Positions 30,055 through 63,183 of a DNA stretch of 64,000 bases are shown here, piece after piece (position 1 is the first letter of the stretch; every line of letters begins with the position of its first letter). The DNA comes from Kriegella aquimaris (GTDB lineage Bacteria; Bacteroidota; Bacteroidia; Flavobacteriales; Flavobacteriaceae). The stretch spans positions 1-64,000 of the forward strand of contig NZ_FNGV01000007.1 in assembly GCF_900103215.1 (NCBI RefSeq), given 5' to 3'. The position numbers and the translations under genes were made by a program. Under the pieces are notes generated by a model. It did no database searches, was not told where the DNA came from, and worked only from the letters and a program-made list of their open reading frames with translations.

Positions 30055-31107
30055 CTAACTCATAAGTTCCAAAGCTTTAAGTTTCTTGATACGTATATTT
30101 CTTCCTTCAATATCTATGAGCCCTTCTTTTTTGAATCCCGATAGGGTACGAATAAGACTCTCGGTGGCGATACCTGCTACACTGGCCAAATCGTTTCGAG
30201 AGATTTTGATATCACCTTCTTTTTGGTTATTCATGATTTCGGCAAATTGTAAAAGGGTCTTGGCAGTCTTCTTTCGAACCGAACTATACGCCATTTGTAA
30301 CAGTTGAGCTTTGGCTTCGCTTAGGTCGTTGGCTAGCAATTCCATGAGTTCCAAAGAAATATTATGGTTTTTTTCGAGGATGGTCTTTAGGTCTTCCTTG
30401 GCAATGGCGGCAAGTTCTACCGTCTCAAGGGCCGTAGCCGATTCTTGATGCGGTATATTTTTCATTACCGATGTAAACCCTAAGAAATCATCGGCTCTAT
30501 ATAGTGATGTGGTAAGCTCCTTACCATCAGCATCCATACAATGGCATTTGACGACCCCTTTTAATATTAAAAATATTTTATGTGAGTGCATGCCTTCTTG
30601 ATACACCATTTCTCCCTGTTCGAAGTTTACAATTTCCCCATTATCATCAAAAAAGTTCTTCAGTTCGTGCAATGTGCGCATTTCATCTTCTGAAAACTCA
30701 GGGGTTTTCGTCATTTCTCCAGACATGCGATTTAACAGTTGTGTCTTTGCCAATCGACTCTCAATAGCGCTGATAAGGTCTTCTTCGTCGAAAGGTTTTG
30801 TTAGGTAATCGTCTGCGCCAAGATCCATTCCTCTCCTAATTTCTTTATGTTCCGTTTTTGCGGAAAGAAAAATAAAGGGAATGTGTTGGGTTTCTGGAGC
30901 ATTCGAAAGGTTTTCTAGTACGCCGTAACCATCTACTTCGGGCATCATGATATCGCAAATAATAATATCAGGAAGTTTCTGCTTCGCCGTTTCTATCCCA
31001 ATTTTTCCATTTGGGGCCGTTAAAACGGAATAGCCAGAAAGCTCCAAAAGTTCTTCTGTATTTTCCCGTAACGCCCTGTCGTCCTCAATCAATAAAACTG
31101 TTTTCAT
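30055..31107 (-). CDS. Receiver-CRP fusion transcription factor
   Basis: 350 aa in three parts: receiver domain 1-120 (phosphoacceptor Asp52 in CDIMMPEVDG, Lys104), cyclic-nucleotide-binding-like beta-barrel about 150-265, and Crp/Fnr winged HTH about 285-345. The recognition helix reads ATESLIRTLSGF, keeping the Glu316 and Arg320 that in CRP and FNR contact the G of a TGA core. The FNR cysteine cluster is absent (only Cys51, 188, 190), so the signal should come by phosphorylation. It lies 3 bp after a PAS histidine kinase gene, its evident partner. It is the best candidate to bind the TGAY-N4-RTCA sites of the island. Confidence 0.9.
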   Translation of the reverse strand: MKTVLLIEDDRALRENTEELLELSGYSVLTAPNGKIGIETAKQKLPDIIICDIMMPEVDGYGVLENLSNAPETQHIPFIFLSAKTEHKEIRRGMDLGADDYLTKPFDEEDLISAIESRLAKTQLLNRMSGEMTKTPEFSEDEMRTLHELKNFFDDNGEIVNFEQGEMVYQEGMHSHKIFLILKGVVKCHCMDADGKELTTSLYRADDFLGFTSVMKNIPHQESATALETVELAAIAKEDLKTILEKNHNISLELMELLANDLSEAKAQLLQMAYSSVRKKTAKTLLQFAEIMNNQKEGDIKISRNDLASVAGIATESLIRTLSGFKKEGLIDIEGRNIRIKKLKALELMS

Positions 31108-60951: not shown

Positions 60952-61356
60952 ATGAAACCAAAAGAGAGAATAGTAAATGAACTTTACCAAAGCCTGGGCA
61001 AGTTGTTTTATGCAATCGCCATGGCGGACAAAAATGTGAGGCCGATCGAAGTGGAGGAATTGAATAAAAATGTGCATACGTTTTGGCTTTCCATCGATGA
61101 AGTCGAAGACGAGTATGGTACCGATGCCGCACATCAGATTGCCATTGTTTTTGATTGGTTACAGCAAGAAAATAAGGAAGGTCAACAGTATTTTGATGAA
61201 TTCGTTGACTTTTATAAAGAACATCCCCAAAAGTTCAACGATGAAATCAAAAAGCTTATTATGAAAACCGCATACGACATTGCATTGTCATTCTGGGGTG
61301 CTAATAAATCGGAATTGATTCTTCTGACTAAGCTTCGGATGCTTTTGAAAATTTAA
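60952..61356 (+). CDS. Helical protein, TerB-like
   Basis: 134 aa from ATG 60952 (MKPKERIVNELYQSLGKLFYAIAMADKNVRPIE); the longer frame from GTG-like codons at 60913 is less likely. The first 40 residues match the start of TerB/DjlA-type helical domains (LxxxAxADxxVxxxE), after which the protein remains helical and acidic. Possible metal binding by the acidic residues is inferred. It stands between the helical paralogue 3 and the HMA-cytochrome genes, separated by about 90 bp from the latter. No island operator seen upstream. Confidence 0.6.
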   Translation: MKPKERIVNELYQSLGKLFYAIAMADKNVRPIEVEELNKNVHTFWLSIDEVEDEYGTDAAHQIAIVFDWLQQENKEGQQYFDEFVDFYKEHPQKFNDEIKKLIMKTAYDIALSFWGANKSELILLTKLRMLLKI

Positions 61357-61389: not shown

Positions 61390-61434
61390 TGTAACATCGG
61401 TTACAGTAGCTTATTGAACAAGGTTGTAATTTTA
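61390..61434 (+). promoter_or_regulatory. Second-type Crp/Fnr site upstream of the HMA-cytochrome genes
   Basis: TGTAAC-ATCG-GTTACA (61390-61405) is a perfect inverted repeat with 4-nt centre. TAATTTTA (61427-61434, 7 of 8 to TAnnTTTG) ends 36.5 bp from its centre, the same geometry as the TGAY-N4-RTCA sites. The core GTAAC-N4-GTTAC resembles motifs reported for HcpR-type nitrosative regulators in some anaerobes, so a different Crp/Fnr protein may bind here. Confidence 0.6.
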
Positions 61435-61458
61435 AATCGACAATATAGAAACTGCACA

Positions 61459-61734
61459 ATGAAAACTTCAATTATCGTACAAAACTTGAGGTGTCGCGAA
61501 TGCGCAAAGACCATTATCGCTAAATTATCGGAACTTCCTACAATTTCAAATCTTGCTGTAGATGTCGAGTTGGCCAGGGTTTCCTTTGTTTATGAGAATT
61601 TTAATGACGCTTTGGTCGTTAAGGAAAAGCTTAGGGAAATGGGCTACCCTTCCATACATTATAAAAGTTCCATCCCCAATAAAACATTTTCATTTGAAGG
61701 GGGAGGAGCGGTCTTAAAACTATTGAAGACATGA
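61459..61734 (+). CDS. Heavy-metal-associated (HMA) domain protein
   Basis: 91 aa from ATG 61459. A ferredoxin-like HMA fold is suggested by IIVQNLRCRECAKTIIAKLSELPTISNLAVDVELARVSFVY, with the metal pair Cys-x2-Cys in RCREC. Residues after 65 are an extra tail rich in Ser, Gly and hydrophobics. It could be a copper or other thiophilic metal carrier, although the MxCxxC methionine is absent. Its stop overlaps the start of the next gene by ATGA. Confidence 0.78.
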   Translation: MKTSIIVQNLRCRECAKTIIAKLSELPTISNLAVDVELARVSFVYENFNDALVVKEKLREMGYPSIHYKSSIPNKTFSFEGGGAVLKLLKT

Positions 61735-62720
61735 AATTACTAACCTATTTAGTTCTGGTATTCATATTTGTAGGCTGTAAAGACGGTAAGCAAACTGAAA
61801 AAGAGGCCATAGATAAGACATTTGATAATCATACGACAGAAGTTACGAAATCGCATCCTGGAAAGAAATTTTTGGAAAACGAATGTTATATATGTCATAA
61901 CCCGAAGACTTCCCAAGCTAGTATGGTTGCTCCGCCTATGATGGCTATCAAGCAGCACTATATAGATTCAAGCACTACAAAGGAAGCTTTTACCGAAGAT
62001 TTGATTCGCTGGGTGAACGATCCCGAAACAAAAACAAGAATGCCAGGAGCCCATAAAAGGTTTGGAGCCATGCCTTATTTACCCTACCCGGATGAGACTT
62101 TGAGACAAGTGGCCGATTACATTTATGATAATGATCTTGAAAAACCAGATTGGTTGGATGCTCATTTTCAGAAAGCCCATAGGAAAGGAAAAGGATTGGC
62201 CGGTTGTGAGTGTATGTTATTTGAAGACGATCAAACCGACTATACCGATATAGGAATGGAATATGCCTTGGCCGCCAAAACGGCATTGGGCAAAAACTTA
62301 GTGAAAGCCATACAGGAAAGCGGAACAGTAGGGGCTGTGTCATTTTGTAATGTAGAAGCGCTCAAATTGACGGATAGTATTTCGGTAATGAAAAATGCCA
62401 TTATAAAAAGAGTTTCCGATAAGCCCAGAAATCCAAATAACAGTGCCAATACGGAAGAATTGGGATATATTGAACTATTTAAGCGAATGGTGGCATCTGG
62501 GGAGGATGTAAAACCTATTGTAAATGTAGCGAACGGAGAAGTTGATTTTTATTACCCCATTACCACCAACGCCATGTGCCTACAATGTCACGGAAAGCCT
62601 GAAAAGCAAATTGAGATTGAGACTTTGGCCATGTTAAAAAAGCGATATCCCGAAGATATGGCGGTCGGATATGATGTTAATGAGGTACGCGGTATTTGGG
62701 CCATTAAATTTGACGAATGA
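61731..62720 (+). CDS. Lipoprotein cytochrome c fused to a DUF3365-type heme domain
   Basis: 329 aa. Lipobox FIFVGC (Cys16). Residues about 42-140 form a class I cytochrome c with heme motif CYICH (52-56) and distal Met in the KTRMPGAHKRFGAMP region. Residues about 160-325 match the Tll0287/DUF3365 domain with a second heme motif CLQCH near 284-288. A GCECM segment between the two adds two cysteines. It is anchored in the membrane facing the periplasm, probably a redox sensor or electron-transfer protein. It is translationally coupled to the HMA gene. Confidence 0.85.
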   Translation: MKLLTYLVLVFIFVGCKDGKQTEKEAIDKTFDNHTTEVTKSHPGKKFLENECYICHNPKTSQASMVAPPMMAIKQHYIDSSTTKEAFTEDLIRWVNDPETKTRMPGAHKRFGAMPYLPYPDETLRQVADYIYDNDLEKPDWLDAHFQKAHRKGKGLAGCECMLFEDDQTDYTDIGMEYALAAKTALGKNLVKAIQESGTVGAVSFCNVEALKLTDSISVMKNAIIKRVSDKPRNPNNSANTEELGYIELFKRMVASGEDVKPIVNVANGEVDFYYPITTNAMCLQCHGKPEKQIEIETLAMLKKRYPEDMAVGYDVNEVRGIWAIKFDE

Positions 62721-62854: not shown

Positions 62855-62989
62855 ATGAATAGTAAAATGATTATTCCTTTAGTTTCGTGGGAAAGTGGAA
62901 CGATAATAATTGGAGTTTTTGTAGTAGTTTGTATAGTACTCGTGGGAATCGTTGTTGCGATGATATCGGGCGGAAAGAAAAAAGAATGA
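62855..62989 (+). CDS. 44-aa single-pass membrane protein
   Basis: ATG 62855 to TGA 62989. It has one membrane helix (about 15-37, GTIIIGVFVVVCIVLVGIVV) and a basic end GGKKKE. The last codons overlap the ATG of the following DUF6132-type gene by ATGA. Small membrane proteins of this kind accompany DUF6132 and rhodanese/redox genes in Bacteroidota. Function unknown. Confidence 0.6.
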   Translation: MNSKMIIPLVSWESGTIIIGVFVVVCIVLVGIVVAMISGGKKKE

Positions 62990-63183
62990 CATCAAAAAAC
63001 ATTATTTTAACAATTGTCGGCGTCGTAATCGGGGCAATTGCAGGTTATCTATACTATATTGAAATAGGTTGTGTGAGCGGTACTTGCGCCATAACTTCAA
63101 AACCTTTGAATAGTACTCTGTATGGTGGGGTAATGGGCGGATTGCTCTTCAATACTTTCAGTGAAAAATCTCCGAAAAAATAG
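62986..63183 (+). CDS. DUF6132-type small membrane protein
   Basis: 65 aa. The start at 62986 is preferred over the track of in-frame codons upstream because it overlaps the stop of the 44-aa gene. Two membrane helices, one at about 5-25 and one at about 45-58, flank the conserved YYIEIGCVSGTCAITSKP segment whose two Cys form the family hallmark. The function of the family is unknown; its usual contexts are sulfur and redox genes. It converges with a Usp gene. Confidence 0.75.
   Translation: MTSKNIILTIVGVVIGAIAGYLYYIEIGCVSGTCAITSKPLNSTLYGGVMGGLLFNTFSEKSPKK

Follow-up and report, generated by a model that had tools for sequence, protein, structure and literature searches.

A candidate Crp/Fnr-type operator links an HMA-diheme cytochrome operon of Kriegella aquimaris to a putative sulfide/reactive-sulfur regulon of the Flavobacteriaceae

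FisR is a Fis-family sigma54 activator, whereas CstR (CsoR-type) and SqrR-BigR (ArsR-type) are repressors. Their targets, among them PDO, SQR, TauE and YeeE genes, are similar to those of the regulon proposed here (PMC9774590, PMC7315123), and FisR uses three conserved cysteines (PMC9774590). However, none of these proteins belongs to the Crp/Fnr superfamily, unlike the candidate regulator that we describe from Kriegella aquimaris, and the passages on sulfur-sensing regulators in a 2022 review name no Crp/Fnr member (PMC9774590).

HcpR2, a Crp/Fnr regulator of the NO response in Clostridium, Bacteroides and Thermotogales, has the published binding consensus GTAACnnnnGTTAC, carries proline at specificity position 181 (serine or glutamine in some members) and is described as always co-occurring with its target hcp (PMC1274295). 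The HcpR of B. thetaiotaomicron binds heme (PMC13370916). Our system has the superfamily and the HcpR/HcpR2 consensus in common with HcpR2, the match of the present sites being one of site sequence only. NtcA, the 2-oxoglutarate-responsive regulator of cyanobacterial nitrogen genes, binds GTAN8TAC sites that have their centre at -41.5 and a -10 box downstream (PMC3898017). The NtcA site is contained within the GTAACN4GTTAC site studied here, which would likewise be centred near -41.5, and the NtcA helix STRVTVTR resembles the SRVVISR helix of the Kriegella regulator, both with Arg-Val. The containment of one site in the other gives an independent reason to pair the SRVVISR helix with GTAAC DNA. 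In contrast to NtcA, the Kriegella regulator has a Cx5CC motif and is associated with sulfur genes. For the cytochrome, the closest known proteins are those of the Tll0287/sCache_heme family; in Tll0287 itself, Cys and His serve as the heme ligands (PMC12889525).

The window analysed here is a 64,000-nucleotide stretch of the K. aquimaris genome (positions 1 to 64,000 of contig NZ_FNGV01000007.1). The palindrome TGTAACATCGGTTACA, with perfect 6-nt arms around an ATCG centre (midpoint 61397.5), sits in a 102-nt intergenic gap between an ORF that ends at 61356 and has no Pfam family and an HMA-domain gene that starts at 61459 (Table 1). It is followed by TAATTTTA, an element of the TANNTTTR form that we take to be the -7 element of Bacteroidota sigma-A promoters. 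A first-pass annotation of this DNA had reported the palindrome, its 4-nt centre and a 36.5-bp distance to TAATTTTA, and all three are confirmed in the sequence. The 36.5 bp are counted from the centre of the palindrome to the final base of TAATTTTA; 29 bp separate the midpoint from the TA of TANNTTT, and 22 nt separate GTAAC-N4-GTTAC from this TA. A site at a fixed distance that abuts or overlaps -33/-35, upstream of the -7/-10 element, is the arrangement predicted for a class II activator-dependent promoter.

Table 1. Coordinates of the features discussed (positions without a contig name are those of the window)
Feature	Position	Strand	Basis or remark
Candidate activator site TGTAAC-ATCG-GTTACA, TGTAACATCGGTTACA	61390..61405	+	Read from sequence; conserved at fixed spacing elsewhere
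-7 type promoter element TAATTTTA, TANNTTTR form	61427..61434	+	22 nt 3' of GTAACN4GTTAC
Small HMA-domain protein, CxxC (CRECAK), 91 aa from ATG	61459..61734	+	Pfam HMA E 3.8e-7, obtained with a longer, TTG-started version of the ORF
Diheme c-type cytochrome, 329 aa	61731..62720	+	Pfam Tll0287-like E 4.3e-21
Small DUF6132 protein, GCVSGTC	62989..63183	+	Pfam DUF6132 E 9.5e-8
Candidate Crp/Fnr-family regulator gene	C35:209900-210532		On another contig than the window; adjoins a site
Palindromes set aside as likely chance	C6, C8, C16, C18, C24, C26, C35 (twice), C36:196383		Bare palindromes; neither strand has an exact TANNTTT 22 nt away

The same promoter geometry, which the first-pass annotation had ascribed to a TGAY regulon, is found at nine TGAY-N4-RTCA sites in the window (29921-60201). 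TANNTTT begins 23 nt past the 12-mer, and the distance from midpoint to TA is again 29 bp, equal to that of the GTAAC sites; the other offsets from 5 to 40 hold at most two occurrences each. Five of the nine sites precede Usp-family genes, and others precede a cation ATPase gene, a Pyridox_ox_2 gene and a LytTR regulator gene. A fusion of a response-regulator receiver with a cNMP domain and a Crp-type HTH is encoded at 30055-31107 (-) and might be the protein that acts on the TGAY sites. The set continues just past the window end, with an equally spaced TGAY site at C19:65397. This position is beyond the cytochrome operon, so the operon does not stand at the border of the TGAY island, where it had earlier been placed.

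A genome scan for GTAAC-N4-GTTAC, which the annotation had proposed, gave no signal for the bare palindrome and a clear one for the full geometry. In the whole 6.06-Mb genome, the exact palindrome occurs 18 times compared with 21 for the reversed-pattern control, and with one mismatch allowed it is not enriched in the 64-kb window (3 vs 1.44 expected). With the 22-nt spacer and TANNTTT added, the exact pattern has nine genome matches compared with two for its reverse and ~0.04 expected by base composition (~0.0004 per 64 kb). Contig C36 carries seven of the nine, all in its 573-602 kb interval. When two mismatches were allowed in the same genome the enrichment was lost (44 matches vs 77 in the control), and only the strict pattern is therefore informative.

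We searched the strict pattern in 199 Flavobacteriaceae genomes, one per genus, and found 401 matches compared with 10 for the control; 139 of the 199 genomes contain it, compared with 8 for the control. The pattern is rarer in a class-wide draw of 247 genomes, where it is present in 48 genomes (76 matches vs 20 in the control). The spacing was also assessed in 110 loci picked by protein homology only (80 for the cytochrome and 30 for the regulator). TANNTTT is present at offset 22 for 138 of the 341 perfect palindrome-orientations in these loci, each other offset from 5 to 39 holds seven or fewer, and the reversed palindrome occurs twice. A logo of 137 sites, built from sites already having the geometry, reads T.TGTAAC-N4-GTTAC-N22-TANNTTTR. 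Its upstream flank is better conserved than its downstream flank (T at -1 in 86% and T at -3 in 74%), which would be expected if the polymerase covers the downstream side, and A or G follows TTT in 99% of the sites. The window palindrome has the appearance of a genuine regulatory site, belonging to a sulfur-detoxification gene set that is conserved in Flavobacteriaceae. Its centre (61396-61399) carries a C where only 1% of the 137 family sites have C, and the window operator may be weaker for this reason.

The first-pass annotation had postulated a second Crp/Fnr-type activator for this different half-site. The enrichment of the sites, the adjacency of a regulator gene and the co-occurrence of the two across genomes give strong support to such a protein, which would bind and activate at these sites. 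The candidate belongs to the Crp/Fnr superfamily, with a match to PF00027 above the cut-off, a cNMP beta-roll and a Crp-type HTH; phmmer matches to 3dv8 (2.7e-15) and NtcA (8.7e-9) span both domains, and by sequence NtcA ranks among the closest proteins of solved structure. A search for HcpR/Fnr homologues had likewise been proposed earlier. A nearby site is found at only one of the 20 cNMP-domain loci in the genome, that of the candidate, which is also the only one of the 20 genes with Cx5CC or RVVISR. The genome has no hcp (no match to Prismane, PF03063, which was found in 5 of 14 control genomes). On its 3' side the regulator gene is followed by a one-mismatch site, by cydAB and by two genes of YeeE type.

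Sites are present in 113 of the 118 family genomes with a regulator homologue at E ≤ 1e-70 (mean 3.05) and in 2 of the 32 without a homologue at E ≤ 1e-20. Genomes with only weaker homologues are intermediate: sites are present in 4 of 14 and, where the homologue has an E of 1e-59 to 1e-69, in 20 of 35. Given the latter figure, the sites may also be used by a related paralogue. Comparing genomes at E ≤ 1e-70 with all others among the 199 gives a Fisher p of 4e-23, a value that ignores relatedness. In the 30 best homologue loci, of 3.6 kb each and with the K. aquimaris locus among them, there is a perfect palindrome in 24, a geometry site with at most one mismatch in 25 and either of these in 27, often 10-110 nt past the regulator gene. 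In genomes of the class-wide draw (G371, G342, G420, G382, G368, G314 and G419), distant homologues of 38-48% identity are encoded next to a site, 3-29 nt away. Crp paralogues without the CC pair are also encoded in site-holding loci (L112:7596 and L114:7759, both with SREVISR, and L176:1917, with VREVISR), and the SREVISR-type paralogues are possibly a second regulator.

We aligned 80 regulator homologues (85 minus identical ones, with three paralogues included). The cysteines of the Cx5CC motif are conserved in nearly all of them (C77 in 80, C83 in 75 and C84 in 75). Val183, in the recognition helix SRVVISR, corresponds to CRP position 181 by our reading of the HTH alignment and is conserved in 77. 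The protein matches no NCBIfam equivalog above cut-off. It was rejected as an E. coli-type, cAMP-responsive CRP (50.6 bits vs an equivalog cut-off of 266) and as an NtcA orthologue (38.4 bits vs 244.95). HcpR was also rejected as its identity, on account of the missing hcp, Val in place of Pro at the aligned position and the sulfur targets; the aligned Val and the missing hcp are the reasons for not filing it under that name. A PDB search with the regulator to E 10 returned no chain named HcpR, judged by name. Thus the earlier description of the regulator as HcpR-like holds for the DNA motif and fails for the protein and its regulon: HcpR2 targets hcp and has Pro, whereas the Kriegella regulator has Val, a conserved Cx5CC and sulfur targets. 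It may nonetheless read DNA as HcpR2 and NtcA do. To judge from the sequences, a single activator of the Crp/Fnr family, with its three conserved cysteines, apparently controls the site set, and we hold the assignment of sites, regulator and regulon to one another to be very probable.

The C36 sites precede genes for a SulP sulfate permease, a peroxiredoxin, a fatty-acid-hydroxylase-family protein, an SQR-like flavoprotein, a DsrE protein and an MBL-rhodanese protein, and an OEP/HlyD/RND efflux operon. A second MBL-rhodanese protein and rhodaneses are encoded within the same cluster. Copies before redox genes had been named as what the proposal needed, and they exist, preceding SQR-like, cytochrome bd and peroxiredoxin genes. 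We collected 102 first downstream ORFs from 111 sites in loci of the own genome and in 40 regions of relatives, many with a Crp gene; two ORFs were dropped as duplicates, six sites for want of an ORF within 350 nt, and the window's own site was set aside. The 25 families listed, of 42 in all, include 26 rhodanese, 23 MBL, 20 TauE, 11 Pyr_redox_2, 7 peroxiredoxin, 6 SulP, 5 OEP, 3 CydA, 2 molybdopterin-oxidoreductase and 2 HMA. Because the regions were chosen around site clusters, these figures are proportions and not a census. The MBL-rhodanese proteins are read as putative persulfide dioxygenases (PDO-like). None of the tested MBL-rhodanese, SQR, YeeE and TauE proteins scored above an NCBIfam cut-off, and for this reason the enzyme names are based on Pfam domains and context. 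SQR, PDO, TauE, YeeE/YedE, CydAB and copper chaperones all figure in the response to sulfide that has been measured in Acinetobacter baumannii (PMC7315123). A further exact site, at C19:72227-72269 (-) (L018:12237-18263), lies near genes for a 1448-aa fused ACR_tran-OEP efflux protein and an HlyD-like protein. The ORF assigned to it starts 6 nt past TTT, and a longer version of this ORF overlaps the site, which may therefore be a chance occurrence.

In the mechanism that we propose, a dimer of the candidate regulator would bind TGTAACN4GTTACA, with the site centre near -41.5, and would work by class II activation at an NtcA-like promoter, recruiting RNA polymerase to TANNTTTR 22 nt downstream. 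The signal would most likely be persulfide or polysulfide derived from H2S and read by C77, C83 and C84 of the Cx5CC motif. The targets would comprise MBL-rhodanese proteins, SQR, rhodaneses, peroxiredoxin, TauE and SulP transporters, cytochrome bd and RND efflux. We regard this reading as likely when taken whole. Considered by parts, activation rather than repression is quite probable, and persulfide is a moderately favoured choice of signal.

Of the other readings, the one that survives best keeps the same regulator and sites and takes the signal to be redox or oxygen, sensed through a cysteine disulfide switch or an Fe-S ligand, with the sulfur genes as one output. Crp/Fnr proteins are often oxygen sensors, cysteines serve several chemistries (those of the regulator could bind a metal or a cluster instead of persulfide), and cydA and peroxiredoxin genes are among the targets. 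We nevertheless consider it unlikely: MBL-rhodanese, rhodanese and sulfur-transport genes dominate the targets, a separate TGAY set with equal promoter spacing exists alongside, and an FNR-type cluster usually has four cysteines, compared with three here.

The operon context in relatives is consistent with the persulfide-responsive regulon that we favour. The order rhodanese-HMA-diheme is found inside a sulfide cluster in Kriegella, Aurantibacter, Maribacter and Eudoraea, as PDO-peroxiredoxin-rhodanese-HMA-diheme runs in Kriegella (L111), Aurantibacter (L113) and Maribacter (L122) and as PDO-rhodanese-HMA-diheme in Eudoraea (L142). A thioredoxin gene (WCGPC) lies 3' of the diheme gene in L124, L125, L139, L140, L143, L168 and other relatives; in the window none stands at this place. 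Neighbouring genes in the 80 cytochrome loci were labelled by their best BLAST matches to 23 reference proteins, and a gene was credited with an operon site if a site with at most one mismatch and exact geometry lay inside the operon or up to 450 nt before it. Operon sites were obtained in this way for 29 of 31 HMA genes, 33 of 39 PDO-like genes, all 12 OEP-labelled genes and 48 of 84 cytochrome gene pieces, and for 77 of 586 unlabelled genes (12 of the 586 directly preceded). A site stands directly before the cytochrome gene in 13 of 84 cases, a low figure because the cytochrome is mostly not the first gene. Under the strict rule, 36 of the 84 cytochrome gene pieces have no site, among them the best-scoring homologue, from Pareuzebyella (L109), and those of Ignavibacteria (L146, L150) and Cryomorphaceae (L162-L164). 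The cytochrome gene of Pricia (L110) has a perfect palindrome 70 nt upstream of it, together with a weaker -7 element. On this sequence evidence the window operon would belong to the sulfide/reactive-sulfur regulon.

The metal genes in these operons bear on a second alternative, a switch for metal (copper) stress in which the sulfide genes make metal sulfides or protect thiols. An HMA gene inside the window operon and the RND efflux operons with sites (every OEP-labelled gene in the cytochrome loci, and ACR_tran) are what such a switch would predict, but most targets are not metal genes. Moreover, sulfide also raises copper chaperones in A. baumannii, so that metal genes fit a sulfide regulon (PMC7315123). 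We judge a copper switch to be quite improbable.

The cytochrome gene overlaps the HMA gene by 4 nt. The HMA protein would be a CopZ-like metallochaperone, by domain only. The cytochrome is a probable lipoprotein with an invariant lipobox-like Cys16. Its N-terminal domain is class-I-like (C52, C55 and H56 in CXXCH, and M114), and its C-terminal domain is Tll0287-like/sCache_heme and contains the second CXXCH (C283, C286, H287). The latter assignment is based on this motif inside the domain and on the predicted fold. The profile match to 5b82 (Tll0287) has an E of 3.8e-11, and Foldseek with the AlphaFold2 model (mean pLDDT 76.9, pTM 0.52) matched 5b82 at E 1e-7. This was the single PDB match at E ≤ 0.001, and the fold search is uninformative beyond the Tll0287 domain. 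Unlike Tll0287, the window cytochrome adds the N-terminal domain, is probably a lipoprotein and is set in a sulfide operon. Cys206, which lies outside both CXXCH motifs, is invariant across 24 aligned sequences (including 23 of the 80 fetched homologues) and is a candidate axial ligand of the second heme. This heme is probably Cys/His ligated and suited to passing electrons from sulfur compounds. Cys/His ligation also occurs in thiosulfate-handling cytochromes such as TsdA and SoxAX, and we infer an electron-transfer or sulfur-oxidising role with a sulfur compound as the presumed substrate. The DUF6132 gene, 268 nt past the cytochrome gene, is a possible third gene of the transcript; in Pricia (L110) a similar DUF6132-like protein is likewise encoded 3' of the cytochrome gene. 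PADLOC found no match for the two window proteins submitted to it.

The earlier characterization as a metal/heme operon is fair for the HMA and cytochrome genes, although their context is sulfide handling. A heme operon could also be the target of an HcpR-type NO/nitrite switch, in which a heme-binding Crp/Fnr protein senses NO and turns the operon on. Besides the identity of the site motif with the HcpR2 consensus (PMC1274295), this reading can draw on the NO-binding sensors in the Tll0287 domain family (PMC12889525) and on an overlap of sulfide and NO responses, since sulfide induces hmp/nsrR in A. baumannii (PMC7315123). It has to contend with the lack of hcp and the Val residue noted above, and with the absence of any recognised NO family among the 25 of 42 families listed for the 102 downstream genes. 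In addition, a stand-alone, Cys/His-ligated representative of the Tll0287 group binds NO weakly and is read by its authors as having a redox role (PMC12889525). We therefore think this switch very improbable. That the window palindrome is a chance occurrence beside an otherwise real regulon is the least probable reading by far, for all that bare palindromes are no more frequent than the control and the ATCG centre is unusual, since a -7 element at the exact spacing, within so short an intergenic gap, is hardly expected once in 64 kb and the downstream genes have the same site in many relatives.

Under the sulfide-responsive mechanism, the window operon would contribute two proteins to the sulfide response, an HMA protein resembling copper chaperones and a lipoprotein cytochrome with two hemes. 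A broader version of this proposal is tentative, and we give it slightly less than even weight. In it, a Cx5CC persulfide sensor, Flavobacteriaceae-wide and reduced elsewhere in the class, might unite H2S oxidation, sulfite/thiosulfate transport, sulfide-proof respiration through cytochrome bd, and copper handling in one regulon, with the lipoprotein cytochrome serving, through its Cys/His-ligated Tll0287 heme, as a sulfur-compound oxidoreductase.

A search of the open-access literature found no description of a GTAACN4GTTAC sulfide regulon. Among marine heterotrophs flavobacteria are common, and sediments and algae are places where they encounter sulfide. The operator GTAACN4GTTAC-N22-TANNTTTR would make the sulfide response of a large bacterial group readable from sequence, and the analysis names a testable sensor with three candidate cysteines. 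The TGAY and GTAAC site sets, which have one promoter geometry on one chromosome stretch, are useful for models of Bacteroidota promoters. The analysis also provides a context for the genes of HMA proteins and Tll0287-type cytochromes, which are otherwise recognised only from their domains, and a little-known protein of copper-binding type and a two-heme cytochrome would find their place in the cell's response to sulfide.
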